Source: Aquilaria yunnanensis (taxonomy: Eukaryota > Streptophyta > Magnoliopsida > Malvales > Thymelaeaceae). From it: 64,000 nucleotides of DNA. Shown in pieces: positions 1,527 to 23,000 of the stretch. Each line of letters starts with the position of its first letter. The first letter of the stretch is position 1. Position numbers and translations under genes: made by a program. The notes beneath the pieces are model-generated. The model saw only the letters and a program-made list of their open reading frames with translations, was not told the DNA's origin and did not search any database. The stretch is from positions 101,570,893 to 101,634,892 of the forward strand of contig CM077594.1 in assembly GCA_039654915.1 (NCBI GenBank), given 5' to 3'.

Positions 1527-4500
1527 TGTGGCAACGTCGGGTTTTCTGGAGTCGCCACCAATCGGTTTACCTAGGTCGATTGGACACCTTAAAATTGGTC
1601 TACGAGAGTTCGGGGATCGGGAGTACGGTTACGCTAAAACAATTTTGTTATAGCGCCCAAAATTGGCACCTTAGTTGATTTTAATTTTGTTTTGCTTTGC
1701 TTTTAGAAAATATTCAGTTAATTTTCAAACTAGAAATTTTAACTGAATTAATTGGATGTGGCTTTTTAAATTAATTTATATAGAATTTGATACTTCCGAA
1801 CCATGGACTCTGCCGAGTCACCCGGACACGGAATTTGATGAAATTTTAAATAAATTAATCCATATCGTAAATATGGATTTTTATCTTTGTATTTTTTTAA
1901 TTTAATTAAAAAGTAGATATTTTCCAAACCGTAGATCCTGACGGATCATCCGGATATGGAAATTATTTTAAAAAGGTGAGCCAAAAAATAATTATTTAAT
2001 CAAAATTTCATTTATTTAATAATGAAACCAAAAATTTATGTATATTTCAAAAAAAATAAAAGAAAAGTCTTAATACTTTATTTGATAAAAGGTGAACAAA
2101 AAAAAAATAATTATTTAATCAAAGTTTTATTTAATAAAGGAAACAAAAATTGATATGTATATTTCAAAAATAAAAGAAAAGTTTTAATATTTTATTTGTT
2201 TTATTTTGTTTTAATGAAAGATTAACCAAAAATAATTATTTAATTAAGAAACCAAAAATTTATATGCATATTTTAAAAAATAAATAAAAGTTTTTGATAT
2301 TTATATATTTTATTTTTTTGTGTTCTTTTTTTATTGATAAAATAATTTTCTAATTTATAAGTCTAAAAATAAATTTAATTAATAAGTCTAAAATATTAAA
2401 AAAAATATTCTTTTTTGCTTGTTTATTTTTATTACCTTTATTTGAAATTATTTGGGTAAAATTTTATTTTGTTTAATAAAGGAAACAAAAAGTTATATCT
2501 TTTTATTATTTTGAAAGAAATAAGTAAAATATTACTGGATAAAAAAAATAAGTAAAATATTATCCCAAAGTATTTTCAATCAAAAAGTAAAATACTACTG
2601 AATAAAAATAAATAAGTAAAATATTATCCCAAAGTTTTTCAACCAAAAAGTAAAATATTACTGAATAAAAATAAATAAGTAAAATATTATCCCAAAGTTT
2701 TTCAATCAAAAAAGTAAAATATTACTAAATAAAAATAAATAAGTAAAATATTATCCCAAAGTTTTTCAATCAAAAAGTAAAATATTACTGAATTAAAATA
2801 AATAAGTAAAATATTATCCCAAAGTTTTTCTATCAAAAAGTAAAATATTACTGAATAAAAATAAACAAGTAAAATATTATCCCAAAGTTTTTCAATCAAA
2901 AAGTAAAATATTACTGAATAAAAATAAACAAGTAAAATATTATCCCAAAGTTTTTCAATAAAAAAAAGTAAAATATTACTGAATAGAAATAAATAAGTAA
3001 AATATTATCCCAAATTTTTTCAATCAAAAAGTAAAATATTACTAAATAAAATCCTGAAGTTTTTATATCCTTTTATTCTTTTTACTAAGAAAAAAACTAA
3101 AAAGTTATACTTAATAAATAAGTAATATATTGCTGGATAAAGAGATAAGTAAAATATTAGCCCAAAGTTTTTATTTTTTAATAATAAAAGAAAATTTATT
3201 TATATACTTTATGTAAAAAAAATATATTTTATATACTTTATTTAAAAAATATTTTCCAAGCCATGGATCCTGGCGGATCATTTGGACATGGAGTTTAATT
3301 TTTATTAATTAATTATTTAATTACTTATTAATTAAATCATAATTTTTATTGGATTTTTATTATTATTTTTCTTGAATTTTTAATTATTATTACTATAGAA
3401 ATATATTTAAAAACAGAATTGATTTTTGTTGTATTTTTAGAATTATTTAATTATGTTTTTTAAATAATTTTTAATAAAAAGAATAAAAACTTTAACTTTT
3501 TGTTCTCTTTAAAGAAATAATTAAAACATATGTTTCAAAATAATAAAAGATAATTGTCTTTAAAAAATGATTTTTCAATAGAATAAAGTTAATTATTCAC
3601 ATAAAAGAATCTTCTTTTAATTAGTTACTGTTTACTTATTTATTTATTTTTTATTATTAAATAAGTGAAATAAATTTTATCATAAAATAAAATTTTGGCA
3701 TAAAGGAAAATTAAATAAAGTAAAGTAAAGGGGAGGTTTTATTTTAGTTTAGACATAAAAAAAATGCATAAAATAACACATGTAAACATATAAAGGAATA
3801 TTAAAAGATAATAAATAAATAAATAAAGTGGGGCTTTTTGACCATCCACTTAAAAAAATAAATAATAAATGTTAGCAAATTTAATTAAATTAATTATTAA
3901 ACAACAATAATAAAAAGTTAGTCAAGTTAATTAAATTAATTAATTAACAACAATAATAAAAAGTTAGCCAAGTTAATTAAATTAATTAACAACAATAATA
4001 AAAAGTTAGTCAAGTTAATTAAATTAATTAATTAACAACAATAATAAAAAGTTAGTCAAGTTAATTAAATTAATTAATTAACAACAATAATAAAAAGTTA
4101 GTCAAGTTAATTAAATTAATTAATTAACAATAATAATAAAAAGTTAGCCAAGTTAATTAAATTAATTAACAACAATAATAAAAAGTTAGTCAAGTTAATT
4201 AAATTAATTAATTAACAACAATAATAAAAAGTTAGCCAAGTTAATTAAATTAATTATTAACAACAATAATAAAAGTTAGCAAAGTTAGTAAAGTTAGATG
4301 TTAATAACAATAAAAATAAAAGTTAGTAAGTTAGTTGAGGTAACAATAATAAGGTTAGTAGGTTAGTCATAATAATAATAATAATAAGGTTAGTCATAAT
4401 AATAATAAGGTTAGTAAGTTAGTTATAATAATAAATAATAATAAGGTTAGTCATAATAATAATAAGGTTAGTAAGTTAGTTATAATAATAACAATAAAAA

Positions 4501-5523
4501 GAAGGGTTAGTAATAATAACAATAATAAACAAATAAATAAACAAGTAAAAATTAAAAGGGTTATGAATCAATTCTGCAAGAACAAAATAAAAGATTAGTA
4601 ACCAAAGTGAAAGAAATTGAAAAGATAGAGGACAAAACAAGGGTTGTACCCTTTAAAAATTAATTTGAATATGCTGAAACAGAGGTGACGGACGCACGAA
4701 GCGCAGGGGCAGGGGGGAGGCGGAGTTGGACGGGGGGCGCGGTCAGGGGCACGGTGGTGAAGGCGCAGGGTAGCGAGGCGGAGGGCAAATCGGCGGGCGT
4801 GGGGCAGCGTGACAGAGTAAAAGAGAAGAGAGAGAAAGAGAAGGAAGAAGGAAGAAGATGGTCAATTCGTAAGGAAATAAAAGTTGGGAATTTCTGGGCA
4901 GAGGGAAGATAAGCTAGGGAATAAGGCTGTAATTTTACCTTTTTTTTTTAAACGGAGCTCTAAGCTTTCTTTCTATTTTTTTCTGTCTTCAGCACTGAAT
5001 TTAGGGGGGTATTTATAGAAGGAGCTTAGCTAAACTGTGGACGGATAAATTAATAAAAAATCTCAAACTTATCTTTTAAATTGGTAAAATGACAGTTTCA
5101 GTCCTTTACGTTACTCCAGCTCTGGATAAGCTCAGAAGCTTCTGATTTTGACAATTTTAACGTTTTCTGTCAATTTGGGCCAGAAACGTCCGTTTAGGCC
5201 CAAAATTGACGCGAAAAATTACCCAAGGCTCCTGAAACTTTCAGAATTTGTCAATTTTGTCCGAAACTTCTCAATTTTGTCATTTTTACCTCAAACTTTT
5301 AATTTTTTGTCATTTTTTTCTGAAATTTTATTTTTATTTCAAACACATACATATTCACACATATATTATTTTAAATCAAATCTTCTCAAAATAAAAATAT
5401 ATTTTAAACTAATTAACATAATTAAATTTTTTTAGCAATAATAATAATAATAATAATAATTTTTTTAATTAGTTTTTTTTTTTTAATTTAAAAAAAAAAG
5501 CTAGACGAAATTGGGTGTCAACA
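1527..5523 (-). repeat. 3' LTR (in element direction)
   Basis: This copy is 3997 bp and matches 16002-19996 along its whole length. It contains a ~63-bp tandem repeat at about 2570-3040 (unit containing CCCAAAGTTTTTCAAT), a ~45-bp repeat at about 3890-4260 (unit containing AAGTTAGTCAAGTTAATTAA), and a GC-rich stretch at 4685-4850. A minus-strand TATA-like TCTATAAATACCCCCC lies near 5005-5020. Short plus-strand reading frames inside it are conserved only because the LTR is duplicated and do not look like genes. Confidence 0.9.
5011..5018 (-). promoter_or_regulatory. TATA box of the LTR promoter, left copy
   Basis: The minus strand reads CTATAAAT followed by ACCCCCC, about 500 bp into the LTR in element direction. 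The same box occurs in the right LTR near 19484-19491. That copy would drive the full-length transcript. Confidence 0.5.
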
Positions 5524-5536
5524 GCTGCCCCCCTTT
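5524..5536 (-). other. Polypurine tract
   Basis: On the minus strand AAAGGGGGGCAGC abuts the start of the 3' LTR. This is the expected place and composition for the plus-strand primer of an LTR retrotransposon, and it fixes the element's orientation. Confidence 0.75.
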
Positions 5537-5689
5537 GCATGCTTCATGGGACATGATGTATGCAAAGTAGTTACCAAATTTCGTCCGGCTTAGCTAGGCA
5601 TTGAAACCTTTTCGCCGCCTAAATCCTGAGGTTAAGGAACTCTCCTTAGAACCCCGGCGATAGAAGCTCTCCTATCGTTGAAGGAAAAT

Positions 5690-6840
5690 TGATTGTTTCT
5701 GAGGCAAAGGTTCCATCCTTAAAACCTCGGATTGATTGATTGATTTCGAAGCAAAGGTTCCATCCTTAAAACCCCGATGATGAAAATTGATTGTTTTCGA
5801 GGCAAAGGTTCCATCCTTAAAACCCCGACGATAGGAGCAGTCCTACTGTTGATTGTTTTCGAGACAAAGGTTCCATCCTTAAAATCCCGACGATAGGAGC
5901 AGTCCTACCGTTGATTGTTTTCGAGACAAAGGTTCCATCCTTAAAATCCCGACGATAGGAAATTGATTATTTTCGAGGCAAAGGTTCCATCCTTAAAACC
6001 CCGATGATGAAAATTGATTGTTTTCGAGGCAAAGGTTCCATCCTTAAAACCCCGATGATGAAAATTGATTGTTTTCGAGGCAAAGGTTCTATCCTTAAAA
6101 CCCCAATGATGAAAATTGATTATTTTCGAGGCAAAGGTTCCATCCTTAAAACCCCGATGATGAAAATTGATTATTTTCGAGGCAAAGGTTCCATCCTTAA
6201 AACCCCGATGATGAAAATTGATTATTTTCGGGGCAAAGATTCCATCCTTAAAACCCCGGTGATGAAAATTGATTGTTTTCGAGGCAAAGGTTCCATCCTT
6301 ACAACCTCAGATTGATTGATTGATTTCGAGGCAAAGGTTCCATCCTTAAAACCTCGGATTGATTGATTGATGTCGAGGTAAAGGTTCCATCCTTAAAGCC
6401 TCGAATTGATTGATTGATGTCGAGGCAAAGGTTCCATCCTTAAAACCTCGGATCGATTGATTGATTTCGAGGCAAAAGGTTCCATCCTTAAAACCTCGGA
6501 TTGATTGATTGATGTCGAGGTAAAGGTTCCATCCTTAAAACCTCGAATTGATTGATTGATGTCGAGGCAAAGGTTCCATCCTTAAAACCTCGGATTGATA
6601 ATTGATCTCGAGGCAAAGGTTTCATCCTTAAAACCCCGGATTGATTGATTGATCTCGAGGCAAAGGTTCTATCCTTAAAACCTCGGATTGATAATTGATT
6701 GTTTTCGAGGCAAAGGTTCCATCCTTAAAACCTCGGATTGATAATTGATCTCGAGGCAAAGGTTTCATCCTTAAAACCCCGGATTGATTGATTGATCTCG
6801 AGGCAAAGGTTCCATCCTTAAAACCCCGATGATGAAAATT
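5690..6840. repeat. Tandem array of ~50-bp units near the element's 3' end
   Basis: About 20 units share a core GAGGCAAAGGTTCCATCC followed by TTAAAACCCC or TTAAAACCTCGG and a GATTGATTGATT-type spacer. Unit length is 51 bp at 6004-6315 and varies from about 49 to 58 bp elsewhere. The array lies between the purine tract and the cargo genes, the position where Tat-lineage elements are known to carry variable tandem repeats. Confidence 0.85.
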
Positions 6841-7390
6841 GATTTTGAGGCTAAGGAGCTTTCCTTAGGATCTCGAGCGAAATTTATATGAAAGCAATTG
6901 AAATTGGAATAATTTTCTTCGAAAGTGTGAATTTTCATAATAGGCGAGGCCAAAGAATTAGGCTTCGATAAAACGAGTGAATCTTGATGATGACAATAAC
7001 ACTGACAAATTATGTAAAGGGAACGGATGTTTAGAATCAATATCCAAGGTTCATCTAATATTTCCTTCAGTAAATATAGATTCGCTTGAGAGATATGTCA
7101 TCCAAATAAGGTTGAAGTTTAACTACCCCAAAATGTTATGCCTAGTAGACCTAATAGGATGCGTCTCAAGAGTAATAAAAATTACCCTTTACTCAGCCAT
7201 TCCAACCTAAAGGCATTGTCCCATGGTTTTAATATCAGCATGAACGAAATTATCTTATAAGATAAAGAAATTCCTTGAAAAGAAAAACTGAAACACGAAA
7301 GAAAATGCTGATAATAAAACTAAAGGACAAGAAAAACGGATCGGATCGCTTCTTCTTCCATAATACTTTAACAGGGTGAGTAGAGGACAA
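6841..7390. other. Non-coding interior of the retroelement
   Basis: Between the tandem array and the LOG pseudogene. Short frames exist on both strands but none shows a recognisable domain. Probably 3' flanking sequence that came with, or followed, the captured LOG copy. Confidence 0.4.
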
Positions 7391-8020
7391 TTATGGGATC
7401 AAACTGGTCGGGAAAGACTGTCGTGTCCAGTCTATCTGAATCATCGCTGGATCTTGTTTAGGAACAAAAACTTGCATTTTATCTAGCAATTCTTCAACAG
7501 TTGTTACAGATATCAAAATTCACCATGCTGCCTCAGGGATAAACTTCTGCTTCACAGCACGATTCATAAAAAATAATAGACCTGCGAAGAAATAGTTAAC
7601 ATTTAACAGCCCAATGGGTTTTTGATGCAAATTAAGTTGGGCCATGGAAGCGATTTGGAAGACTTCTCCTAATGTGCCAAAGCCACCTGGTAGAGCGATA
7701 AAAGCATCAGCATTAAAAAGCATTTGTAACAAGCGCTCTTGCAGATTTTTAATCACTAGCTCTTCTCCAATCGTGCCCCCAGAAACCGATTTCAGAGATG
7801 CAGGGATAATACCCAGAACCTGGCTTCCTCCTAAAGATGCTGCTGATGCTACAGCTCCCATTAATCCGACACTACCTCCTCCATAAACTAAGTGTATTTT
7901 TCGCTCAGCTAATACATTACCCAAATGGTTGGGTGCCTTTAAGTACTATTCATATTTTTCAGAAAAAGCTCCAGAAAATACACAAATACTTCGGGGTTTA
8001 CGAGTGGAGGTTTTCTCCAT
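7391..8020 (-). pseudogene. LOG: Captured LONELY GUY (LOG) cytokinin riboside 5'-monophosphate phosphoribohydrolase, intronless, two nonsense codons
   Basis: LOG enzymes release active cytokinin bases from nucleotide precursors in the cytosol. From the ATG at 8020 one frame of 210 codons runs to a TAA at 7391-7393. It shows R-S-I-C-V-F-S-G near the N-terminus, the V-Y-G-G-G-S-V-G-L-M-G nucleotide-binding segment, and the family signature P-G-G-F-G-T-L-G-E (normally PGGxGTxxE). Q-K-P-I-G-L-L-N-V and a C-terminal T-V-E-E-L-L-D-K-M-Q follow. The length is normal for the family. Plant LOG genes have several introns and none is present here, which suggests capture through an RNA copy. In-frame stops at codon 25 (7946-7948) and codon 167 (7520-7522, where arginine is usual) make it a pseudogene. 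The signature glutamate and GGxGT loop survive. It has its own TATA box 41 bp upstream. Confidence 0.88.
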
Positions 8021-8060
8021 TCATATCCTTACCCATGTGAGAAAAGAAGAAAAGAGGATA

Positions 8061-8070
8061 TATTTATAGA
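8061..8070 (-). promoter_or_regulatory. TATA box upstream of the LOG pseudogene
   Basis: The minus strand reads TCTATAAATA, 41 bp upstream of the LOG ATG. The wider context CATCTCTATAAATA is close to CATCACTATAAAT upstream of the first cysteine-rich ORF, suggesting a shared promoter module. Confidence 0.5.
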
Positions 8071-8124
8071 GATGAAAAGATAAAGTAATAATTTTATTCT
8101 TAAGAGTGAATACATTATTGTCAG

Positions 8125-8665
8125 CTATACACAGTAGTCACGACTATGGATCAGGTCAGGAGTGGGTACATTGTCGTCAAAAGAGGAGAAAATTTTCAAA
8201 AGCAACTAGCATATACAGTAGTCGCGACTGTAGCTTACGTCAGGAGTAGGTACGTGATTGTTGGAAGAGAAGGGAAATTTTAAAAAGTGGCAGCTATATA
8301 CAGTAATCATAACTGTATCTCATGTCAGGAGTGGATACATTATCGCCAAAGGAGAAGGAAAATTTCAAAAGCGACAGCTAGCATGTACAGTATCGTGACT
8401 ATGGCTCATGTCAGGAGTGGATACATTATCGCCGAAAGGGGAGGAAAATTTCAAAAGCGACAGCTAGCACGTACAGTAATCGTGACTTTGGTTCACGTCA
8501 GGAGTGGATACATTATTACCAAAATGGGAGGAAAATTTCAAAAGCGACAGCTAGCACGTACAGTAATCGTGACTTTGGTTCACGTCAGGAGTGGATACAT
8601 TATTACCAAAAGGGGAGGAAAATTTCAAAAACGACAGCTAGCACGTACAGTAATCGTGACTTTGA
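8125..8665. repeat. Promoter-proximal tandem repeat, about 7 units of 82-88 bp
   Basis: Units contain GTACAGTAATCGTGACT, then a T/C-rich linker, then CACGTCAGGAGTGGATAC and an A/G-rich AGGAAAATTTCAAAAGCGAC stretch. Unit spacing by the ACAGTA landmark is 82 to 88 bp. On the minus strand the later units carry CCTGACGTGA and others CCTGACATG, resembling TGACG-type bZIP sites. Single degenerate copies of the same unit precede the first two cysteine-rich ORFs (about 9360-9440 and 10180-10270). Only the LOG promoter has the amplified array. Confidence 0.75.
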
Positions 8666-8712
8666 TCCTCGTCTTCCACTGGCTTTGCGTCCAGTAATGG
8701 CTTCAATGCTTT

Positions 8713-9261
8713 CTATGAATCGGTGATTTGCATCTCATCTAGCTTTCTCACAAACTGGCAAACAGGGTCGTTTAGGGTTAGATTCCCAAGACTGTAACGA
8801 TCTCGTTCTTTTTGGAAAATTATCCATAATCCAACAACCTCAAATTGCACTATTCCGCAAGAATGCGCTTCAAGAACCTCTCGAATATCTTCTAGAGATT
8901 CCTTACGCAAGCCATTCTTAATGAATCTTATTCTATCATTACGATTTCTGGTGATCACTCCTGGAGAACGACATTTATTGCCGCAAATCCACCATCCACA
9001 ATTATGACAAACGCCTAGCCTCTTTGCTCTTCTTTTTTTGGCATAAGCGCTTTTACCAAAGCCGGGCATACGGGGAAAGAACGCTTCTGGAATTTCACCA
9101 GCTGAACGAACCTTAGCTTCAATTAGCCACCGCACATTATCAGGAATGCCTTTGTGCATAAATACTCTGAATCGTTCACATCTAGCTTGATAAATCTTTT
9201 TAAGAACATTTATTGGGAAGGAAGGAAAATACTTTCGTAGGGCGGAAAGAGAAGACTCCAT
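8713..9261 (-). CDS. Cysteine-rich basic protein, copy A (resembles flexivirus nucleic-acid-binding CRP)
   Basis: An open frame of 182 codons with no interruption. Residues 1-60 are helical-looking. Residues 73-81 form a basic run Y-A-K-K-R-R-A-K-R, followed by C85, C88, C93 and C97 (C-x2-C-x4-C-x3-C) and then R-S-P-G. A charged C-terminal half follows with N-D-P-V-C-Q-F-V-R-K-L near the end. A basic 'YA(K/R)(K/R)RRA' run directly before a Cys4-type finger and a nearby glycine is the hallmark of the small cysteine-rich nucleic-acid-binding proteins of carlaviruses and relatives. That assignment is by pattern recognition only; the cysteine spacing here is shorter than the carlavirus form. It could instead be a retroelement-specific ORF. 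It is one of three tandem copies and has a TATA box 60 bp upstream. Confidence 0.6.
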   Translation of the reverse strand: MESSLSALRKYFPSFPINVLKKIYQARCERFRVFMHKGIPDNVRWLIEAKVRSAGEIPEAFFPRMPGFGKSAYAKKRRAKRLGVCHNCGWWICGNKCRSPGVITRNRNDRIRFIKNGLRKESLEDIREVLEAHSCGIVQFEVVGLWIIFQKERDRYSLGNLTLNDPVCQFVRKLDEMQITDS

Positions 9262-9320
9262 TGATAAAGGAGGTAAAGAAAGAAATTAGTGATTGTAGGA
9301 AACGAAAATAACTAACACAT

Positions 9321-9330
9321 ATTTATAGTG
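9321..9330 (-). promoter_or_regulatory. TATA box upstream of CRP-like copy A
   Basis: The minus strand reads CACTATAAAT, 60 bp upstream of the ATG at 9261. The same decamer precedes copy B, and a close variant precedes LOG. Confidence 0.5.
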
Positions 9331-9477
9331 ATGAAAGAGATAATGCGTTAATTACACTTACAGAAGCAAGTACATTATTGTCAAAAGAAAAGACAAATGA
9401 CAGCTTATATGTACAGCAATCATGACTGTGGCTCTCATCTTCCACTAGTTTATGTCTAGTAACGGCTTCAATGCCTT

Positions 9478-10026
9478 CTATAAGTCGGGGATTTGCTTCC
9501 CATCCAGTTTTCTCACAAACTGGCAAACAGGGTCATTAAAAGTTAGATTTCCAAGACTGTAACGATCCTGTTCTTTACGGAAAGTCCACCATAAATCCAT
9601 AATTTCCCATTGCACTATTTCACAAGAATGTGTTTCAAAAGTTAATAGGATATCATCCAAAGATTCCTTACGCAGGCCATTCTTGATGAATTTTCTTTTA
9701 TCTTCATGATTTCTGGAGATGTATCCTAAAGAGCGACATTTAGTATTACAATTCCATCGTCCACATTTATGACAGACACCTAGCCTCTTTGCTCTTCGCT
9801 TTTTGGCATAAACGCTTTTACCAAAGCCGGGCATACGGGGAAAGAACGCTTCTGGAACTTCACCAGCTGAACGAACCTTAGCTTCAATTAGCCACCGCAC
9901 ATTATCAGGAATGCCTTTGTGCATAAATAGTCTGAATAGTTCACATCTAGCTTGATAAATCTTTTTAAGAACATTTATTGGAAGGGAAGGAAAGTATTTT
10001 CGCAGTGCAGAAAGAGTAGAATCCAT
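9478..10026 (-). CDS. Cysteine-rich basic protein, copy B (resembles flexivirus nucleic-acid-binding CRP)
   Basis: A second intact 182-codon frame, same length as copy A and collinear with it without indels. The basic run at 73-81 and the four cysteines at 85, 88, 93 and 97 are kept (C-H-K-C-G-R-W-N-C-N-T-K-C). The N-terminal 85 residues are very similar to copy A, while residues 95-150 vary more. The tail N-D-P-V-C-Q-F-V-R-K-L is kept. Duplicated non-coding flanks on both sides show that a whole cassette was copied, not just the ORF. Any function in nucleic-acid binding is inferred from the motif. Confidence 0.6.
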   Translation of the reverse strand: MDSTLSALRKYFPSLPINVLKKIYQARCELFRLFMHKGIPDNVRWLIEAKVRSAGEVPEAFFPRMPGFGKSVYAKKRRAKRLGVCHKCGRWNCNTKCRSLGYISRNHEDKRKFIKNGLRKESLDDILLTFETHSCEIVQWEIMDLWWTFRKEQDRYSLGNLTFNDPVCQFVRKLDGKQIPDL

Positions 10027-10146
10027 TGATGAGAGAAGAATTTGAGAGAAGAGGGAAATGAATCAGTTATTGTAGGAGACTGGAATAACCGACTTTAGAA
10101 GTCACGGGGTATCTTATCCGCTGGTTAATCAGAAGGAAGAACACGC

Positions 10147-10156
10147 ATTTATAGTG
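10147..10156 (-). promoter_or_regulatory. TATA box upstream of CRP-like copy B
   Basis: The minus strand reads CACTATAAAT, 121 bp upstream of the ATG at 10026. Copy C has the matching upstream region but an altered sequence at this point (about 10985-10995), so its TATA box appears lost. Confidence 0.4.
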
Positions 10157-10315
10157 ATAAAAAGGGATAACTTGTCGATTACACTTAGGGGAGCATGTAC
10201 ATCTGTCAAAAGAAAATGGAAACTTTTCCAAATATAACAAACTGTATGTACAGTAATTGTGACTGTGACTCACATCTTCCACTGGCTTTACGTCTAGTAA
10301 CGGCATTAACGGCTT

Positions 10316-10864
10316 CTATGAGTCGAGGATTTGCTTCCCATCCAGTTTTCTTACAAGCTGGCAAACAGGGTCATTTACAGTCAGATTCCCGGGACTATAA
10401 CGGTTTCGTTCTTCATGAAAAATACTCTATAAACCAAGAAGTTCACGTTGCACAGATCCACAAGAATGTGTCTCAAGAGTCAATCGGATATCATCCAATG
10501 AGTCCTTACTCAGGCCATTCTTGATGAATTGTATTTTATCTTCTCGATTATCGGAGATCATTCCTAAAGAACGACATTTAGTATTACAAGTCCACCGTCC
10601 ACATTTGTGGCAGACTCGTAACCTTTTCGCTCTTCGCTTTTTGGCATAAGAGCTTCTGCCTATACCAGGCATGTGAGACACAAATGCCTCTGGGATTTCA
10701 CCTGCCAGACGAACCTTGGCTTCGATTAACCACCGCACATCTTCAGGGATTCCTTTGTGCATCAGAACTCTTAATCGTTCACAGCGAACTTGGTAGATCT
10801 TTTTTAGAATGTTCATTGGGAGAGAAGGAAAATATTTTCGTAAGACAGAAAGAGTAGGATCCAT
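10316..10864 (-). pseudogene. Cysteine-rich basic protein, copy C, interrupted by one nonsense codon
   Basis: Collinear with copies A and B over 183 codons, but a TAG at 10427-10429 (codon 146, where copies A and B have tryptophan) truncates it to 145 residues. The basic run and all four cysteines lie before the stop, so the truncated product would keep the putative nucleic-acid-binding part. Beyond the stop the same frame continues with the conserved N-D-P-V-C-Q segment to a normal TAG at 10316-10318. It is the most diverged of the three, for example M-P-G-I-G-R-S-S in place of M-P-G-F-G-K-S. Confidence 0.6.
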
Positions 10865-13800
10865 TTCCTAGAGGGAAGTAAAAGAAAGAAGAGAGGAAAG
10901 AATCAGTTATTATGGGCAACTGAGAGAACCGACTTGAGAGTCATGGAATACCGTATCCGCCGCTTAACCGGAAAAGTGGATCCTACTTTATTTTGATATG
11001 AATGATATTTCTTATCTTTGATATTCCATCCAGCTGACGTCGATCGAGTCCTTGATTATTGAATCTTTTGTCCGCTTTTGACAAAGTTTCAACGACAATA
11101 TTTCTTGATGTCTGCCTTATCTTTGACCACAGCTATCTCTTATCTTGGATGCTGCTAAGCTGGCATCAATCCTATCCTTCCAGGTGTAGCCTCGATTATT
11201 GAATCAATTGCCAGGCTTTTGACAATATTGTCTACTTTATATTTTTTTTGATATCTGCCTTATCCTTGGCTATAGCTATCTCTTATCTTGGACACTACTA
11301 GCTGGCGTCAATCCTATCCTTCCAGGTGTAGCCTCGATTATTGAATCAGTAGCCAAGCTTTTGACAACATTGTCTACTTTATCCTTGAATTCCTGATGCG
11401 GGTTGGTCCCGCATATTAGCTGTGTATCCAGTGATAGATTGGTAAGAGCTGATGACATTGAGATCTCAGCTTATACTGCTGTAACTGTGCTGTGAATGTG
11501 ATTCCCGTTTGGTCCTTGTTATGTAAAGGCTATGTATGCATGATATGAAATGCATGAATGCAAAGCATGTGTAATTGATGGTTTTTTTTTTGTATGGATC
11601 TAGTTCTTTATGTCTTTGTTTTACTGGATCCTCTTTGTGATGGCCTTCTTGGACTATCATTGAATCTCTTTATGCTTCCCAGCTCTTGTAGATTGCCTCA
11701 AAAGCCCAACTCTTTTCAAAGTCCGCTTTCTTTGACTTGTTCTTGAATTTTGGCCTCAATTTCTTTAATGTTTGCCCGCCTCATACTTTATGTCTCTTTG
11801 GGTACTCATCCCTTGTCATGGATTTCATAGCATCAAAGGTTTTACTTTCAATGTCTGTCCTTTTTCCTGTGTCCGGGCTGACACATACTTATCCCCATGT
11901 TATAATCTGAATGATTGCTCTTCCTTGAGCTCAAGTTTTGATCCATAAGACTTGCCCCCTTGTCTATTGAACTTCTTTGTTGGCAGTACTCCTCTTACGC
12001 TTCGTAGAGACTACTTTGCCCCCCTGAATATGGTGTTTATGTGGAAAAAAAAGGTATCACCTCGCCTTTAACAGAAGGTCGAGCATTTCTAGACCTTTGT
12101 GATGGCACTTGATCGTAAATCTCTCTTACAAGAACCACATCTTCTTAAAGAAAGTCTCAAGCTATCTCATCACTTTTAAGTCTACACACATTAATGAATA
12201 ATGGTTTGGCCTTAAAGAAAAACTTTCATCAATTTGCAAAGTTTGACAAAGTAATTTACGGTCTTTGTTTTTAATTAAAATATCCTGCCATTCTTCCCTT
12301 TCCAACTCGAAGACATAAACTGTGCAAGACAATAAGGTATAAACATAATTCACAAGGATAGCCTTTTAGCTGAATGACGATGATATCAAGAGGTAAGTGT
12401 TAGGTCCGAGGAACGTTAAGTTTGAGTGGTGTGAAAGAAGGGTCTTTTAATACTACTCGTGAGCAGTATTAAATAAGGTAGAAATATGATTCACAATGAT
12501 AGTCTTTTGACTGAATGAGGATTTTAGGTCTGAGGAAAGTTAAGTTTAAGTGGTGTGAAAGAATGGTCTTTTAATACTACTCGTGAGCAGTATTAAACAA
12601 GGTAGAAACATGATTCACAATGATAGTCTTTTAACTGAATGAGGATGTTCGGTTTGAGAAAAGTTAAATTTAAGTGGTGTGGAAGAATGGTCTTTTAATA
12701 CTACTCGTGAGCAGTATTAAACAAGGTAGAAACATGATTCACAATGATAGTCTTTTAACTGAATGAGGATGCTCGGTTTGAGAAAAGTTAAATTTAAGTG
12801 GTGTGGAAGAATGGTCTTTTAATACTACTCGTGAGCAAATTTGATTATGGTGAAAAACTCAATAGTGATGACCTCAACTTGCCACTCTTTCCAGAAAGTT
12901 AGACCTCATCTGTTGCCCTTCAACTATTGTGATCTTTATGCATGCTTGGTTTGAGGGTTGCTTTTGTGTTCTAAACCGCCTTTGCAGGTTTTCAGTCTAG
13001 AATCCATAGCTCATTTTTTTTGTTTTCTTTCTTTTGCTCTAACTTGAGCCCTTTTTCTTTTCTTTTTTTTTTTTTTTTTGTTTTTTTTTTTTGTTTTTTC
13101 TTTGTTTCCCTTTTTTTTTTTTTTTTGTGAGCTATGGTGATGACATACTTGATAACTCTCTTGAAGTGAGATAACTCAAATGGCCTTGCTTGCTCGTGCT
13201 TGTTCTCAGTCCTTTTTGGTTTTGAATTTTCCCTTGTTGTCTTTTTGATGGAAGGGATGAACTTTTTCCTTTTTGGAGTTTGTGTTGCAGAAAACTGAGA
13301 ACCTTTTTTTTTTTTTTTGAGCATTTATGAGAATTGGGAAGCCACTGAAGTCATTTAATATGAGAGCTACCTTGTTTGGAAACTAACCCCAAACTTCTTG
13401 CAAGGATGTTGATAACCACTGTGAATTCTTTTTGAGGGTTGAGGTGCAACATATGAAATCCTTCTTACTAGATTTGGCAGCACTTTCAAGATCATTACTA
13501 TCAAATTTCCCTTAACTTTTTATTTTCACCCACGAGTAGTATCATTTAGAAAGCAAAGTATGATAGCAATAATGGATAGTATAATGGAAAGGAGTGAGAG
13601 ATGGATGTAAAAACGGAATTTTTGGTAAGAAGTGGTAGAATGTGTAGGTGTAATAATTGAATTTTTGGTAAAAATTGGTAGAATGTGTAGAAGTAATAAT
13701 GGGATTAAAAAGTGGTAGAATGCACACGCAACATCTTTTTGTTAGAGAACAAAAAGAATTACCGGTTGTCGAAAAGTAAAGTGTGATGACAATAATGGAT

Positions 13801-14109
13801 AGTATAATAGCAAAGAGTGTAAAAATGGAAAGTAGTAGAATGCACGCATCACATCTTTTTGTTGTACCAGAAAAAGAATAGCAGGTGTCCATTTAACAAA
13901 GACTACACCCTAGATTCTGGACTAAATCTAGGAGATTTTTACTATTATATTACTTTTGCAAGCTTTCAAAGATACAAGTTTATTCAAAGGATTCCCTGTC
14001 ATTCGAAAATGTATGCGGACTGTTAGGTCAGATCTGACTTGGAGGCCTTCCAAAGTCAATGTAATTCTAGCTTGAAATCTTCACTTTTCAATTATCAATC
14101 ACATCGGGC
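10865..14109. other. Repeat-rich interior where pol would be expected; no coding seen
   Basis: In an autonomous Tat/Ogre element this stretch downstream of gag would encode protease, RT, RNase H and integrase. None of their motifs was seen in any frame. It holds a ~136-bp duplication (about 11110-11390, shared AGCTATCTCTTATCTTGGA), a four-copy 120-126-bp repeat (about 12400-12840), long T tracts near 13010-13130, and a two-copy repeat near 13555-13880. A lysine-rich reading frame at 12992-13324 is only the reverse of the T tracts. Confidence 0.6.
12400..12840. repeat. Four-copy tandem repeat of 120-126 bp with an internal palindrome
   Basis: Copies are recognised by TACTACTCGTGAGCAGTATT at about 12450, 12570, 12696 and, cut short, 12820. 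The sequence at 12445-12473 is a near-perfect inverted repeat around CTCGTGAG and could form a cruciform or RNA hairpin. Confidence 0.75.
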
Positions 14110-15006
14110 CTAGCAACTTGGACTTGGTTTTGCTTGATGAGGCGGCAATGGATTGTGGGTGACATTTGGCTCATCGGAAAAGTCCAACCACTTTGACTCG
14201 ATTAATTGTTGAACTATACGCTTCAATGCCATGCAGTTTTCCATGCCATGGCCTGGAACGCCATCATGATATGGGCAGGTAATGTTAGGGTCATATCACC
14301 TTGGATATGGGGGTTTGAATGGCTTTGTAGGAATTGGACGGATAAATTGTCTTTCGATGAGTTTTGGGTATAACTCAGTATAAGTCATGGAAATTGGTGT
14401 GAAAACTTCTCTTGGTCTTGGTGCAGGTACTGGAGGAGTAGGAGCAGGTGGCCATGACTGATTAGGTCTGTTAAAAGGATAATTGTTGGGCCTATTGGAA
14501 GGATAATCATTGGGCCTATTTGGAGGATAATTATTGGGCCTATTCAGAGGATAATCATTGGGCCTATTTGGAAGGTAATTATCGGGCCCATTGGCAAAAT
14601 AGGATAGGCGAGGTCCGATAGCCACAGTATCCACGAGGGGAATCCTTCTTCCGCGTCCTATTTGTTGTACTTCGTCATCTTTTCTTCTGGATGGTCCTCC
14701 TCTTTTCATAGGATTATTAAAGGATTCAGCAATATTCCCAGTCCTAATCTCATGCTCGATTCTTTCTCCAGACATGACAATGTTAGAAACATTAGTTGCC
14801 GAATTGCCAATGAGTTCGTCATAATATAGGTACTTCAGTGTCTGGACAAACAAAGTGACCATTTCTCTTTCTGTCATGGGTGGCTGAACTTGTGCTTCTT
14901 GAATTGCTTTCGCCTTGATTAGCTCGATCAATTGTCTCATTTGTTCGGCCATACTTTCTATCTTGGACTCTATCTTTATGAGACGTCCTTCGATTTGTTC
15001 TGCCAT
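14110..15006 (-). pseudogene. gag remnant of the LTR retrotransposon
   Basis: The gag polyprotein packages element RNA. From the ATG at 15006 the frame gives an N-terminal coiled-coil-like E-S-K-I-E-S-M-A-E-Q stretch. M-T-E-R-E-M-V-T-L-F-V-Q-T-L-K and Y-Y-D-E-L-I-G follow, then G-E-R-I-E-H-E-I-R-T-G, all typical of Tat/Ogre gag. A repeated N-R-P-N-(D/N)-Y-P linker comes next. A TGA at 14296-14298 (tryptophan expected) stops the frame. Beyond it the same frame continues with Y-D-P-N-I-T-C-P-Y-H-D-G-V-P-G-H-G-M-E-N-C, the gag zinc-binding motif, to a TAG at 14110-14112. The upstream part of a normal gag is missing. Confidence 0.75.
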
Positions 15007-15979
15007 TAATCTTATTTGGAGCCGAGTTGAATATCGGTGTCGAGGTCCAATTTTATCCTTTTAAAAGTAAGGTATATTTTATTAGATCCTATGTGTATGT
15101 GATTGATGCAATGGATGCATGTAGGAAAAATGAGATTATGTTTTTATCAGACTTTGTATACACGTGATTAATGTAATGGATGTATGCAATGAGATTATGT
15201 TTTTATCAGACTTTATATGCACGTGATTAATGTAATGGATGTATGCGATGAGTGAATTTGATTATCCACTATCGTGGAACTTCAAGACTTTTAGTTGTTA
15301 TTAAAAAGACCAAAAAGTTAGCATAGTTTGATGCGTGGTTTTGATGCATGAAGAATATTTGCACAAAACAGAAGTATAACAAAAGAAAGATAAGTTTATT
15401 AATAACTTAAATAGCAATTAACAACTCATGAACTATTATGGAAAAATGAGTTAAAACCATAAATACGAAAATAAAAGTGTAGAGCAACAACACAGCATAA
15501 CAAGGATATGCTTATGGCATTGGTAAATGGGAGGAATACTATGGTCAGTTCTATGGTTAAGTGGGGAGTTCTATATGCATAAGGTGGCTTATCAAAAAGG
15601 CAAGGGATAGTTCCCGAATCCTGTCACTAAATTATAGTGACGGCCCGATTCCTTACCCTCTAGGGTTTATGTAAGGAATGGATTAATTCGAGTCGTAGCT
15701 TTTCGTGGGCCCATGCAGAGACTAACCGTCTCAGAAGGCAATACACTACTTTGCTACTTTGAAACCGGTGAAGGCTTGGAGACCATGGCCTCACAAGGAC
15801 AACAACACCAATTCCGCTTAGAAAGAATCGTGTTCGATTTAAGTAAGCTCGGGTATAGAGCTTCATATTGTGAATGCATAATGCATGTTTTCGCTAAGTA
15901 AATATAGCATATAAAAATCCACATAATAAGCAAAGTAAATTAAAACAAATCAACTTTAGGCTCGACTCACTAACGTCGA
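15007..15979. other. Leader region between primer-binding site and gag remnant
   Basis: No convincing coding sequence. A short duplicated segment (GAGATTATGTTTTTATCAGA near 15130 and 15190) is present. In this lineage the region carries the untranslated leader and sometimes an extra upstream ORF, which is not recognisable here. Confidence 0.4.
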
Positions 15980-15998
15980 GTCCCCAGCGGAGTCGCCA
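15980..15998 (-). other. Primer-binding site
   Basis: The minus strand reads TGGCGACTCCGCTGGGGAC, three bases after the end of the 5' LTR. Tat/Ogre elements are known for a PBS of this type, complementary to the 3' end of a tRNA (reported as tRNA-Arg). A tRNA comparison could not be run here. Confidence 0.7.
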
Positions 15999-16001
15999 AG
16001 C

Positions 16002-19000
16002 TGTGGCAACGTCGGGTTTTCTGGAGTCGCCACCAATCGGTTTACCTAGGTCGATTGGACACCTTAAAATTGGTCTACGAGAGTTCGGGGATCGGGAGTA
16101 CGGTTACGCTAAAACAACTTTGTTATAGCGCCCAAAATTGGCACCTTAGTTGATTTTAATTTTGTTTTGCTTTGCTTTTAGAAAATATTCAGTTAATTTT
16201 CAAACTAGAAATTTTAACTGAATTAATTGGATGTGGCTTTTTAAATTCATTTATATAGAATTTGATACTTCCGAACCATGGACTCTGCCGAGTCACCCGG
16301 ACACGGAATTTGATGAAATTTTAAATAAATTAATCCATATCGTAAATATGGATTTTTACCTTTGTATTTTTTTAATTTAATTAAAAAGTAGATGTTTTCC
16401 AAACCGTAGATCCTGATGGATCATCCGGATATGGAAATTATTTTAAAAAGGTGAGCCAAAAAATAATTATTTAATCAAAATTTCATTTATTTAATAATGA
16501 AACCAAAAATTTATGTATATTTCAAAAAAAATAAAAGAAAAGTCTTAATACTTTATTTGATAAAAGGTGAACAAAAAAAAAATAATTATTTAATCAAAGT
16601 TTTATTTAATAAAGGAAACAAAAATTGATATGTATATTTCAAAAATAAAAGAAAAGTTTTAACATTTTATTTGTTTTATTTTGTTTTAATGAAAGATTAA
16701 CCAAAAATAATTATTTAATTAAGAAACCAAAAATTTATATGCATATTTTAAAAAATAAATAAAAGTTTTTGATATTTATATATTTTATTTTTTTGTGTTC
16801 TTTTTTTATTGATAAAATAATTTTCTAATTTATAAGTCTAAAAATAAATTTAATTAATAAGTCTAAAATATTAAAAAAAATATTCTTTTTTTCTTGTTTA
16901 TTTTTATTACCTTTATTTGAAATTATTTGGGTAAAATTTTATTTTGTTTAATAAAGGAAACAAAAAGTTATATCTTTTTATTATTTTGAAAGAAATAAGT
17001 AAAATATTACTGGATAAAAAAAAAAGTAAAATATTATCCCAAAGTATTTTCAATCAAAAAGTAAAATACTACTGAATAAAAATAAATAAGTAAAATATTA
17101 TCCCAAAGTTTTTCAACCAAAAAGTAAAATATTACTGAATAAAAATAAATAAGTAAAATATTATCCCAAAGTTTTTCAATCAAAAAAGTAAAATATTACT
17201 AAATAAAAATAAATAATTAAAATATTATCCCAAAGTTTTTCAATCAAAAAGTAAAATATTACTGAATAAAAATAAATAAGTAAAATATTATCCCAAAGTT
17301 TTTCTATCAAAAAGTAAAATATTACTGAATAAAAATAAACAAGTAAAATATTATCCCAAAGTTTTTCAATCAAAAAGTAAAATATTACTGAATAAAAATA
17401 AACAAGTAAAATATTATCCCAAAGTTTTTCAATAAAAAAAAGTAAAATATTACTGAATAGAAATAAATAAGTAAAATATTATCCCAAATTTTTTCAATCA
17501 AAAAGTAAAATATTACTAAATAAAATCCTGAAGTTTTTATATCCTTTTATTCTTTTTACTAATAAAAAAACTAAAAATTTATACTTAATAAATAAGTAAT
17601 ATATTGCTGGATAAAGAGATAAGTAAAATATTAGCCCAAAGTTTTTATTTTTTAATAATAAAAGAAAATTTATTTATATACTTTATGTAAAAAAAATATA
17701 TTTTATATACTTTATTTAAAAAATATTTTCCAAGCCATGGATCCTGGCGGATCATTTGGACATGGAGTTTAATTTTTATTAATTAATTATTTAATTAATT
17801 ATTAATTAAATCATAATTTTTATTGGATTTTTATTATTATTTTTCTTGAATTTTTAATTATTATTACTATAGAAATATATTTAAAAACAGAATTGATTTT
17901 TGTTGTATTTTTAGAATTATTTAATTATGTTTTTTAAATAATTTTTAATAAAAAGAATAAAAACTTTAACTTTTTTTTCTCTTTAAAGAAATAATTAAAA
18001 CATATGTTTCAAAATAATAAAAGATAATTGTCTTTAAAAAATGATTTTTCAATAGAATAAAGTTAATTATTCACATAAAAGAATCTTCTTTTAATTAGTT
18101 ACTGTTTACTTATTTATTTATTTTTTATTATTAAATAAGTGAAATAAATTTTATCATAAAATAAAATTTTGGCATAAAGGAAAATTAAATAAAGTAAAGT
18201 AAAGGGGAGGTTTTATTTTAGTTTAGACATAAAAAAAATACATAAAATAACACATGTAAGCATATAAAGGAATATTAAAAGATAATAAATAAATAAATAA
18301 AGTGGGGCTTTTTGACCATCCACTTAAAAAAATAAATAATAAATGTTAGCAAATTTAATTAAATTAATTATTAAACAACAATAATAAAAAGTTAGTCAAG
18401 TTAATTAAATTAATTAATTAACAACAATAATAAAAAGTTAGCCAAGTTAATTAAATTAATTAACAACAATAATAAAAAGTTAGTCAAGTTAATTAAATTA
18501 ATTAATTAACAACAATAATAAAAAGTTAGTCAAGTTAATTAAATTAATTAATTAACAACAATAATAAAAAGTTAGTCAAGTTAATTAAATTAATTAATTA
18601 ACAATAATAATAAAAAGTTAGCCAAGTTAATTAAATTAATTAACAACAATAATAAAAAGTTAGTCAAGTTAATTAAATTAATTAATTAACAACAATAATA
18701 AAAAGTTAGCCAAGTTAATTAAATTAATTATTAACAACAATAATAAAAGTTAGCAAAGTTAGTAAAGTTAGATGTTAATAACAATAAAAATAAAAGTTAG
18801 TAAGTTAGTTGAGGTAACAATAATAAGGTTAGTAGGTTAGTCATCATAATAATAATAATAAGGTTAGTCATAATAATAATAAGGTTAGTAAGTTAGTTAT
18901 AATAATAAATAATAATAAGGTTAGTCATAATAATAATAAGGTTAGTAAGTTAGTTATAATAATAACAATAAAAAGAAGGGTTAGTAATAATAACAATAAT

Positions 19001-19996
19001 AAACAAATAAATAAACAAGTAAAAATTAAAAGGGTTAGGAATCAATTCTGTAAGAACAAAATAAAAGATTAGTAACCAAAGTGAAAGAAATTGAAAAGAT
19101 AGAGGACAAAACAAGGGTTGTACCCTTTAAAAATTAATTTGAATATGCTGAAACAGAGGTGACGGACGCACGAAGCGCAGGGGCAGGGGGGAGGCGGAGT
19201 TCGACGGGGGGCGCGGTCAGGGGCACGGTGGCGAAGGCGCAGGGTAGCGAGGCGGAGGGCGAATCGGCGGGCGTGGGGCAGCGTGACAGAGTAAAAGAGA
19301 AGAGAGAGAAAGAGAAGGAAGAAGGAAGAAGATGGTCAATTCGTAAGGAAATAAAATTTGGGAATTTCTGGGCAGAGGGAAGATAAGCTAGGGAATAAGG
19401 CTGTAATTTTACCTTTTTTTTTGAAACGGAGCTCTAAGCTTTCTTTCTATTTTTTTCTGTCTTCAGCACTGAATTTGGGGGGGTATTTATAGAAGGAGCT
19501 TAGCTGAACTGTGGACGGATAAATTAATAAAAAATCTCAAACTTATCTTTAAAATTAGTAAAATGACAGTTTCAGTCCTTTACGTTACTCCAGCTCTGGA
19601 TAAGCTCAGAAGCTTCTGATTTTGACAATTTTAACGTTTTCTGTCAATTTGGGCCAGAAACGTCCGTTTAGGCCCAAAATTGACGCGAAAAATTACCCAA
19701 GGCTCCTGAAACTTTCAGAATTTGTCAATTTTGTCCGAAACTTCTCAAATTTGTCATTTTTACCTCAAACTTTTAATTTTTTGTCATTTTTTTCTGAAAT
19801 TTTATTTTTATTTCAAACACATACATATTCACACATATATTATTTTAAATCAAATCTTCTCAAAATAAAAATATATTTTAAACTAATTAACATAATTAAA
19901 TTTTTTTAGCAATAATAATAATAATAATAATAATTTTTTTAATTAGTTTTTTTTTTTAATTTTTAAAAAAAAACTAGACGAAATTGGGTGTCAACA
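16002..19996 (-). repeat. 5' LTR (in element direction)
   Basis: 3995 bp, near-identical to 1527-5523, with the same internal tandem repeats (about 17040-17510 and 18360-18740) and TATA box (about 19484-19491). The small size difference comes from short indels in A/T runs. Confidence 0.9.
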
Positions 19997-20001
19997 GCCA
20001 T
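19997..20001. repeat. Target site duplication GCCAT, right copy
   Basis: Pairs with 1522-1526. It sits inside a TNP2 codon series and lets the reading frame be followed across the insertion. Confidence 0.9.
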
Positions 20002-23000
20002 GTCTTCCTCTACAGCTTCCCATACACCTGTTTCAGCTAAATTGTCGATTGGGTCATCCATAATTATGGGAGACCTGTTCACATCGGCCTGCAATTCTTC
20101 CTGATATGCATCTTTGACATCAGCTACATTATTATGAACAATGCGTCTAGGTTTGATTTTCAACACCGCCAACCAACCCGTTTTGTCACGTGACTTCGTG
20201 GGATAATGGGTGTAGTAAACTTGATCAGCTTGGGATGCAAGAATGAAGGGGTCAAACTTCCCATATCGACGACCATCACGAACCTCAACTATCCCATATT
20301 GTTGGTGAACCCGAATGCCACGATTTGGAGTAGGGTCAAACCAAGCACACTTAAACAATACTACTTTTTTATGTGGCTACCCAGGATATTCCAGTTGGAT
20401 AATTTATTCTAACACCCCATAAAAATCACATTCAACCTCACTTGATCTTGAAGTCCTAATACATACTCCACTGTTAAATGTTGCTTTGTCGCGACCCCAG
20501 TCGCTAATGTGGAACTTGTACCCATTTATGAAGTAAACAGGCCAACTCTCAACACGACGAGATGGCCCGCATGTAACATCCCACAGGAAGCGGTCCGTGA
20601 TAGTGTTCCTTACATCATTCACCTAGTTTCAGAAAGTCATAATATAAATATGTATTTTGGTTATTTATCAAAATATGGGTAATTGGAAGTGCAAGTAACT
20701 TACATAGTTTCTAAGCCATGTCTCAAAGTTATTCTCAATGTAGACATCCAGGTCTGCCATCTGTATATTGGGTGCATGCATGCGCACCTCATCAACGAAC
20801 AAACTACAAGATGGCATAAGAAGACGATGGAGCATAAACTGGATGAGTTTAGTAGAAAAGAAGAAAAGTTTTGTTTCAGAGAAACACTCAAGTATTTAGC
20901 AATGGGTATTGTTTCACTTACTCGAGGTACGGCTTCACCTCCTTACAATTCAGTAACACATATGCAGCTGCCACCCTCAATTCATTGTCATCAAGATAGC
21001 GATACCTTGATGCCCCATATGGTCGACCCGGGTATCTAAATATAGACCACACTGATTCATCAAATGGTCCTTCACCGCCATCATCATTACGAGGTACTCG
21101 AGTAGCCATATGTGGGATATGGGATTCAAAGTAGTAAGAGCAAAATGTAGAGGTCTCTTCAATTAGATATGCTTCACAAATTGAACCCTCTACATGAGCC
21201 TTATTTGAAACCTTCATTTTGAGGTCATGCATACAACGCTCAAACTTGTACATCCACCTATATTGAACGGGGCCTCCAACTCTTGCTTCGTAAGGTAGGT
21301 GAACCGGCAAATGTTCCATCGAGTCGAAAAAAGCCGGTGGGAAAATTCTTTCCAACTTACAAAGTATGACAGGTATATTTGCTTCCAACTCGACCATGTG
21401 ATTCACATCTAACTCTGGGGAGCATAAATCTCGGAAGAATTGGCTTAACTCGGTCAACGATTTCCATATATTATCAGGCATTGCTTCAAGTGCAATTGGG
21501 AGGAGCCTCTGCATCATTACATGACAGTCATGGCTTTTCAAACCTAACAGTTGACTTAAATTACTGTCAACACACCTCACAAGGTTCGATGCATACCCGT
21601 CTGGGAGTCTAAGTGTTTTAACCCAATTAAGCACATCAGTTCTGTGCTCTCTGTTTAGTGCAAATGTGGCTTTAGATTTAACTGCTCGGCCGTCACCCTG
21701 AGGAATTAAATGTAGCTCTGATCGACTGCACAGAATCTCAAGGTCTTTACGCGCCTTCACGTTGTCCTTAGTTTTATTGGTCACATCCATCACTGTATTC
21801 CATATATTGTCAAACACATTCTTCTCTATATGCATAACATCCAAATTATGGCGGATCAAATTAGTCTTCCAATACGGTAGCTCCCAGAAAATACTTCGTT
21901 TTGTCCAATTATGGGTTCTGCCATAACCTGGTATGGTTACAACCTGTCCATTGCGAACTACAGAAGGCAAATGTGAGATACGTTCAAATATTGCTGCTGG
22001 TGGTAAACGCTCAGGAGGCAACAATTTCTCAACTTTTCCTCTCTTAAAGGAGACTCTGTTCCTTCTGTATGGGTGATCCAACTCTAGAAATTGTCGATAA
22101 CAATCGAAGAACGACGTTTTCCTTCCATGCTCAAGTTGGAAAGCTTTACTATAATCCATGCAAATAGGGCACAATAACCTTCCATGAGTCATCCATCCGG
22201 ACAACATCCCATAAGCCGGGAAGTCATTTATGGTCCACAAAACCGAAGCGCGGAGCTGAAAATTTTGTTTCAGTGAAACATCCCATGTTTCGACCCCATC
22301 CTCTCATAGCTGCTTCAATTCATGAATAAGTGGTTGTAAATAGATATCAATATTCTGACGTGGACTCCGAGGGCCAGGTATCAATGCAGTTAAAAACATA
22401 TATGGCTTCTTCATACACATCCACGGAGGCAAATTATAGGGTGTAACAATGACAGGCCAACATGAGTATTGTTTACCAGAGTACCCGAAAGGCGTAAACC
22501 CATCAGAACAAACTCCAAGGCGAACATTTCGGGTTTCCGCCGCAAACCACGGGTACGTGGAATCAAAATGTTTCCAACCTTCCCCATCTGAAGGATGTTT
22601 TAAAACATTTGGGTCGGATCGATGCTCACTATGCCACCGCATGTGCTCTGCAGTTGACAGTGAAGCATATAGTCGCTGAAGCCGAGGAGTGAGTGGTAAA
22701 TAGTGCATAGTCTTCCTTGCTCTATCCTTACCTCGCCCATTTGTCCTCGGCTTAAACCGAGATTCACCACAAAACTTGCATTCCGAAGCAGCTTCATCAG
22801 TATTCCAAAACAACATGCAGTCGTTTACACAAGCATCAATTTTAAAATGGGCAAGACCTAGTTATGAAACTAATTTCTTCGTCTCATACCAATTGGATGG
22901 CATCTTGCTGTCACTTGGCTGCGTCTCTTTCATCAACGTTGCGATACCATCATAACACCCTCTTGGTATATGATATTCTGCTTTTAGGTTTAACAACCGA

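Follow-up and report, generated by a model that had tools for sequence, protein, structure and literature searches.

A 64,000-nucleotide stretch of the Aquilaria yunnanensis genome (GenBank assembly GCA_039654915.1, contig CM077594.1, positions 101,570,893 to 101,634,892 of the forward strand; hereafter the window) contains a long terminal repeat (LTR) retrotransposon with three tandem copies of a gene which, judged by sequence comparison, is very probably a homologue of the nucleic-acid-binding or cysteine-rich proteins of flexiviruses (NABP/CRP) and a resident of retroelements. The copies belong to an NABP family that is old and occurs widely in the retroelements of plants; its gene was not a private capture by the window element.

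Three gene copies match two viral protein families

A preliminary description of the window, made from its letters alone, had reported three collinear 182-codon open reading frames (ORFs), two of them open and one with a single nonsense codon, and its coordinates were correct; the frames lie on the minus strand (Table 1). The copies are spaced 765 and 838 bases apart with their frames in register, and the in-frame stop of copy 3 (10429-10427) leaves an open piece of 145 codons. As that description had also reported, a YAKKRRAKR run followed by a C-x2-C-x4-C-x3-C finger is present in all three copies (in copy 2 the run is preceded by V). The link to viral cysteine-rich proteins, which it had proposed as unproven, holds at the level of profiles: PF05515 (Viral_NABP) matched copies 1, 2 and 3 with E = 5.5e-6, 5.6e-6 and 2.3e-7, and PF01623 (Carla_C4) with E = 9.1e-5, 2.5e-6 and 1.8e-5, every copy exceeding the curated Pfam cut-offs of both families (23 and 20.9 bits, respectively). 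The copies thus combine scores above the curated cut-offs with a basic run directly ahead of a four-cysteine finger, both of which characterise the flexivirus families; since they are encoded in an LTR element and not in the genome of a positive-strand RNA virus, they are homologues of the viral genes and not viral genes themselves. Copy 3 additionally showed a Prok-RING_2 match below the Pfam threshold.

Six controls (three reversed and three shuffled sequences, from nine made) matched neither PF01623 nor PF05515, and a chance ORF was rejected on this ground. Two of the six controls matched Stress-antifung, below its cut-off.

The family recurs beside retroelement genes in other plants

At E<=0.01, a first homologue search gave 152 proteins, the best with 1.7e-91, and a search with the alignment as query returned 692 at E<=0.1; source names and details of relatives were taken from the best 120 of the 152 and the best 120 of the 692. 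The sources named among the matches listed were Populus, Xanthoceras, Acer, Rhamnella, Citrus, Melia, Pterospermum, Hibiscus, Orobanche, Primulina and Henckelia, all of them eudicots, from the rosids and asterids; most family entries carry no source name, and the named list is no guide to absence elsewhere. The 182-aa length and the key residues are kept in distant relatives. Among 114 aligned family members, 93 matched PF05515 and 90 matched PF01623 at E<=1e-3, about one fifth missing each, and all four finger cysteines were present in 94.

Neighbouring domains were analysed with a padded query that admitted long proteins, which gave 53 relatives at E<=0.01, and their domain order was read by BLAST with pieces of four of these proteins (P0017, P0164, P0184 and P0211). 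Relatives in other retroelements, on which the preliminary description had made its reading depend, were found: 45 of the 53 long relatives had gypsy reverse transcriptase (RT)/RNase H or integrase in the same gene model as the NABP. RT/RNase H lay upstream of the NABP in 36 of 36 cases and integrase in 39 of 40, a domain of LOG, a cytokinin-activating enzyme, lay downstream in 14 of 14, and pol, NABP and LOG occurred together in 11 of the 53. Pfam positions agreed with the BLAST order in ten chosen relatives, where domains were listed: P0184 (Citrus) has the order RT, integrase, NABP, LOG, and P0211 (Primulina) the order integrase, NABP, LOG. In three of these ten (P0182, P0211 and P0177), Carla_C4 was above its cut-off. 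The gene order of the window element, three NABP copies and then LOG, is that of the relatives minus pol. A recent virus insertion into the window element was considered and rejected, given the 692 relatives, many of them next to retroelement genes.

In the Citrus models P0164-P0168 and P0172, integrase and NABP are joined at the same site at the integrase C-terminus, which may reflect a habit of the gene finder or a real spliced message.

Selection and history of the copies

The ratio of nonsynonymous to synonymous divergence (dN/dS; Nei-Gojobori method, NG86), computed without the stop codon of copy 3, was 0.37 between copies 1 and 2 (bootstrap range 0.23-0.60), 0.19 between copies 1 and 3 (0.11-0.30) and 0.23 between copies 2 and 3 (0.13-0.35). 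The preliminary description would have taken values near 1 as evidence against itself; a range of 0.19-0.37 lies well under 1, and the three NABP copies are under purifying selection. If the NABP were a functionless passenger hitch-hiking on successful elements, the broken frames of copy 3 and LOG and the lack of pol in the window element would be expected, but ratios far under 1 in all three pairs, together with the length and key residues conserved in distant relatives, make such passive carriage highly unlikely. Purifying selection would also suit a host-useful or decoy gene, kept for interference with infecting flexiviruses, a role with a proposed precedent in the viral helicases of insect retrotransposons (available part of PMC6338049); as the 45 long relatives above keep the NABP with retroelement genes and not as a single-copy host gene, we consider it very unlikely as well.

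Synonymous divergence (dS) between the copies is 0.35-0.93, far above the divergence of the two LTRs, and the triplication therefore predates this insertion. In an NABP tree of 72 rows, built by a quick method and assessed by Shimodaira-Hasegawa-like approximate likelihood-ratio (SH-aLRT) support alone, two other proteins, P0001 and P0002, fall into one group with the three window copies (support 95). The partner of copy 1 in this group is P0001 (support 99; 88% identity), and that of copy 3 is the full-length P0002 (support 91; 97% identity over 145 columns). The remaining named groups are two from Citrus, one from Orobanche plus one stray row, one from Populus and one from Rhamnella, and within these 72 rows the triplication is confined to the lineage of the window. 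Of the capture and triplication by a retroelement that had been proposed earlier, the tree thus upholds the triplication, placed in the window's lineage, while a private capture has to be given up for an old and widespread family with 692 relatives.

The sequence upstream of copy 3 is less like that of copies 1 and 2 than its frame is, and the likeness between copies 1 and 2 drops only downstream of the frame. One 60-column block in mid-frame is 100% identical between copies 1 and 2, which suggests gene conversion between them.

A recently inserted, non-autonomous carrier

Consistently with the placement in the preliminary description, the three copies lie within an 18.5-kb LTR element (1527-19996) on the minus strand, in the same orientation as the element, and the marks of an LTR retrotransposon are all there: two LTRs, the GCCAT target duplication, a primer binding site (PBS) and a polypurine tract. 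Read on the minus strand, the PBS follows the right-hand LTR and the polypurine tract precedes the left-hand LTR. The LTRs are 99.2% identical (31 mismatches and 2 gap columns in 3995 aligned columns), and their Kimura two-parameter (K2P) divergence is 0.0078, or some 0.30 million years if the rate is taken to be 1.3e-8 per site and year. In transcription order, the 10.5-kb interior consists of a gag-like remnant, tandem repeats, NABP copies 3, 2 and 1, tandem repeats, a LOG-like frame and repeats.

Table 1. Features of the NABP-carrying element in the window.
Feature	Position	Strand	Basis
NABP/CRP-like copy 1, open, 182 aa	8713..9261	-	PF05515 26.9 bits, PF01623 22.8 bits
NABP/CRP-like copy 2, open, 182 aa	9478..10026	-	PF05515 26.9 bits, PF01623 27.8 bits
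NABP/CRP-like copy 3, 182 codons, one stop	10316..10864	-	PF05515 31.4 bits, PF01623 25.1 bits (open piece)
LOG-like frame, intronless, PGGFGTLGE kept	7424..8020	-	PF03641; tblastn with Citrus LOG
5-bp target duplication GCCAT	1522-1526 and 19997-20001		both flanks of element
3' LTR (3997 bp)	1527..5523	-	TG...CA ends; alignment to other LTR
Polypurine tract AAAGGGGGGCAGC adjoining 3' LTR	5524..5536	-	read from sequence
Tandem repeats, 47-51 bp units, between LOG and polypurine tract	5684..6844	.	Tandem Repeats Finder
gag-like remnant in two frames	14110..15060	-	frames; no Pfam match
Primer binding site TGGCGACTCCGCTGGGGA, 2 bases inside 5' LTR	15981..15998	-	read from sequence
5' LTR (3995 bp)	16002..19996	-	LTR alignment

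No pol family was matched in ten chosen minus-strand pieces of the interior (Pfam), and when the 53 long relatives were compared with the interior by tblastn, all 182 matches fell on NABP or LOG and none elsewhere. The RT, RNase H and integrase of an autonomous element were thus not found in the window element; lacking pol, it cannot be autonomous, and its mobilisation must have come about in trans. The carrier is accordingly a non-autonomous derivative without pol, recently inserted and holding three NABP copies.

The LOG-like frame, which the preliminary description had not picked up, nor its recurrent association with the NABP, matched PF03641 (Lysine_decarbox) over its open part 7924-7520 with E 3.1e-28, is 47-49% identical to an element-borne Citrus LOG (tblastn), and combines this profile match with a motif of the PGGxGTxxE type, as LOG phosphoribohydrolases do. 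Its frame is not open, with in-frame stops at 7948-7946 and 7522-7520. Elsewhere, PGGFGTLGE is kept or nearly kept in two Primulina LOG copies (P0210 and P0211) and altered to PGDLTTLE or similar in three from Citrus (P0181, P0184 and P0185), and the motif pattern found nothing in the other nine of the 14 element-borne LOG relatives. The altered Citrus copies may have lost enzyme activity and kept another role.

As to lineage, the two frames that we take to be a gag remnant matched no gag family in Pfam and none of 215 fetched proteins; together with a PBS that is presumably tRNA-Arg-like, this remnant would, on our assumption, suggest Ogre/Tat. The pol-bearing relatives point elsewhere. P0164 and P0165 carry RT, an RNase H and integrase, but Pfam detected no second RNase H in them at E<=1e-3. 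Within the Ogre/Tat/Athila group, pol without a second (archaeal) RNase H is the criterion for Athila (available part of PMC6317226), and these carriers therefore look like Athila rather than Tat/Ogre, a tentative assignment from their domain content.

Both LTRs of the window element hold AT-rich tandem arrays (units of 63, 46 and 57 bp; 2522-3051, 3861-4525, 16997-17525 and 18335-18999), which are unusual in 4-kb LTRs. The right flank (19963-23206, minus strand) contains ORFs that by eye resemble a CACTA-type DNA transposon, into which the LTR element seems to have inserted. Pieces of ORFs resembling a Mutator-like element (MULE) type transposase, recognised in the same way, lie at 45875-46354 (minus strand) and 60302-61603 (plus strand).

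A putative role for the NABP

The explanation that we favour, and hold to be reasonably likely, is that the NABP is an old accessory gene of Ogre/Tat/Athila-type Ty3/gypsy elements, homologous to flexivirus NABP/CRP, whose product probably binds nucleic acids in the nucleus and either counters silencing or reprograms the host cell. In relatives the gene occupies a slot after integrase, in the same orientation, that is filled in other elements by env-like or extra ORFs. Its product would enter the nucleus through the KKRRAKR run, bind nucleic acid through the Cys4 finger together with the basic run, and raise the output of the element either by weakening RNA silencing, which would protect the element's transcripts, or by changing host transcription, as viral CRPs do; LOG, where intact, would supply active cytokinin. 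Characterised viral CRPs weaken RNA silencing or change host transcription (available part of PMC12172455). By analogy with them, suppression of silencing may be the main role of the NABP, a tentative assignment somewhat short of probable, and an effect on host transcription or proliferation is rather unlikely; a role in proliferation would fit the LOG neighbour.

A nucleocapsid-like RNA chaperone would differ in coating or packaging the element's own RNA and aiding reverse transcription, with no action on host silencing. It would account for a basic run beside a small finger in a gene resident in a retroelement, and the C-x2-C-x4-C-x3-C spacing resembles that of the retroviral zinc knuckle. 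Pfam, however, returned the viral NABP families and no zinc-knuckle family for the three copies at E<=1, and the gag remnant seems by eye to hold a Cys/His stretch of its own (14110-14295), so that we judge this alternative quite improbable.

Several observations weigh against the accessory-gene explanation and the homology on which it builds. Pfam scores of the three copies are modest, and among the ten scanned long relatives Carla_C4 fell just under its cut-off in three (P0184, P0178 and P0175) and was not listed at E<=1e-3 in four (P0164, P0165, P0193 and P0207), in which the NABP was assigned through similarity to the NABP family itself. The long relatives are automatic gene models that may fuse separate ORFs, and in one of 40 integrase comes after the NABP. 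Upstream of their frames, copies 1 and 2 are just as similar (71-90% per 60-column block) as within them (70-100%). The structure model built from 114 sequences was mediocre (pLDDT, predicted local distance difference test, 68.6; pTM, predicted template modelling score, 0.31), an earlier one from a shallower alignment having reached a pLDDT of 60.4, and its matches in a viral structure library had E-values of 0.1 or worse and TM-scores below 0.4, none of the 64 reaching 0.001. Finally, with LOG broken in the window and its catalytic motif altered in several Citrus elements, the NABP-LOG pair need not act together, and such LOG copies speak against a strictly joint function at present.

Of the first 13 ranks in that library, 11 were named, all 11 were flexivirus proteins and seven were called RNA silencing suppressor; for a predicted fold, such a ranking only supports the homology. 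Convergence, by which an unrelated basic zinc-finger protein would merely resemble the viral CRPs, could draw on the modest profile and weak fold scores, and on the finger spacing, which the preliminary description gave as shorter than that of carlaviruses. Against it, two Pfam models concur, PF05515 extending well past the basic run and finger (residues 40-122, 40-120 and 35-120 of copies 1, 2 and 3), the controls were negative and flexivirus CRPs top the fold list; we regard convergence as most unlikely. Other searches with the NABP gave seven matches in the PDB fold search, none useful (best E 4.1), a single insignificant match among solved structures by sequence (E 0.31), none among phage records, which cover phages only and are uninformative for plant viruses, and 52 stretches fitting a pattern, none of them confirmed, when IMG/VR was scanned with the family alignment.

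More speculatively, and on balance doubtful, a two-gene cassette of a flexivirus-type suppressor or transcription factor and LOG might long have resided at the 3' end, in the env-like position, of Ogre/Tat/Athila elements of rosids and asterids, passing between element lineages, non-autonomous ones such as the window element included, and making host cells proliferating and silencing-weak, which would favour germ-line transposition; the gene would have been exchanged with flexiviruses in one direction or the other.

Significance and relation to known systems

RNA silencing keeps plant LTR retrotransposons in check, and little is known of their counter-measures; a widespread retroelement gene under selection, homologous to viral silencing suppressors, brings this question directly within reach of standard silencing assays. 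Such a gene would also be a case of exchange between plant retroelements and RNA viruses, with a possible source or sink of flexivirus cysteine-rich proteins, and would set the LOG noted earlier in such elements in a recurrent two-gene arrangement. Among the matches listed in open-licence PMC full text, no description was found of plant gypsy elements that recurrently carry a gene of the flexivirus CRP type. NABP sequences may lie, without this reading, among the 314 Ty3/gypsy extra-ORF groups of PMC6317226, as far as its available part indicates.

The window gene is homologous to the flexivirus CRP/NABP families (PF01623, PF05515) along a stretch of some 85 residues that takes in the basic run and the first cysteines of the finger; it differs in being borne by an LTR element, in its length of 182 aa, in having its own conserved parts at the N- and C-termini, and in its C-x2-C-x4-C-x3-C finger. 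LOG (YgdH/LOGL4-like) extra ORFs were described in gypsy elements of Citrus and Populus (PMC9289625, citing Steinbauerova et al. 2011); these elements likewise have a LOG domain behind pol, but the available part of that paper does not mention an NABP between the two, whereas the window element has the NABP triplicated and lacks pol. The TRP28 extra ORFs of Retand (available part of PMC11963269) likewise lie between pol and the 3' LTR and are thought to bind DNA, but are antisense with another domain, unlike the sense-strand, viral-type NABP. In cucumber, a flexivirus replicase-like sequence lies beside retrotransposon-like sequence, the terms 'cysteine-rich' and 'nucleic acid binding' being absent from the available part of PMC3136472. 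The viral helicase domains of insect retrotransposons are likewise an RNA-virus gene in retroelements, with weak silencing suppression reported, but belong to another host group, are another protein and are fused to polyproteins (PMC6338049, same part). VANC of VANDAL transposons (available parts of PMC5735166 and PMC10398659) serves as a functional model only, as a transposon protein countering host silencing; it belongs to DNA transposons, and no sequence similarity to the NABP is claimed. Insect retrotransposons with viral helicases, gypsy elements with LOG and extra ORFs in general are already known, and the present analysis adds the pairing of LOG with a viral-type gene.

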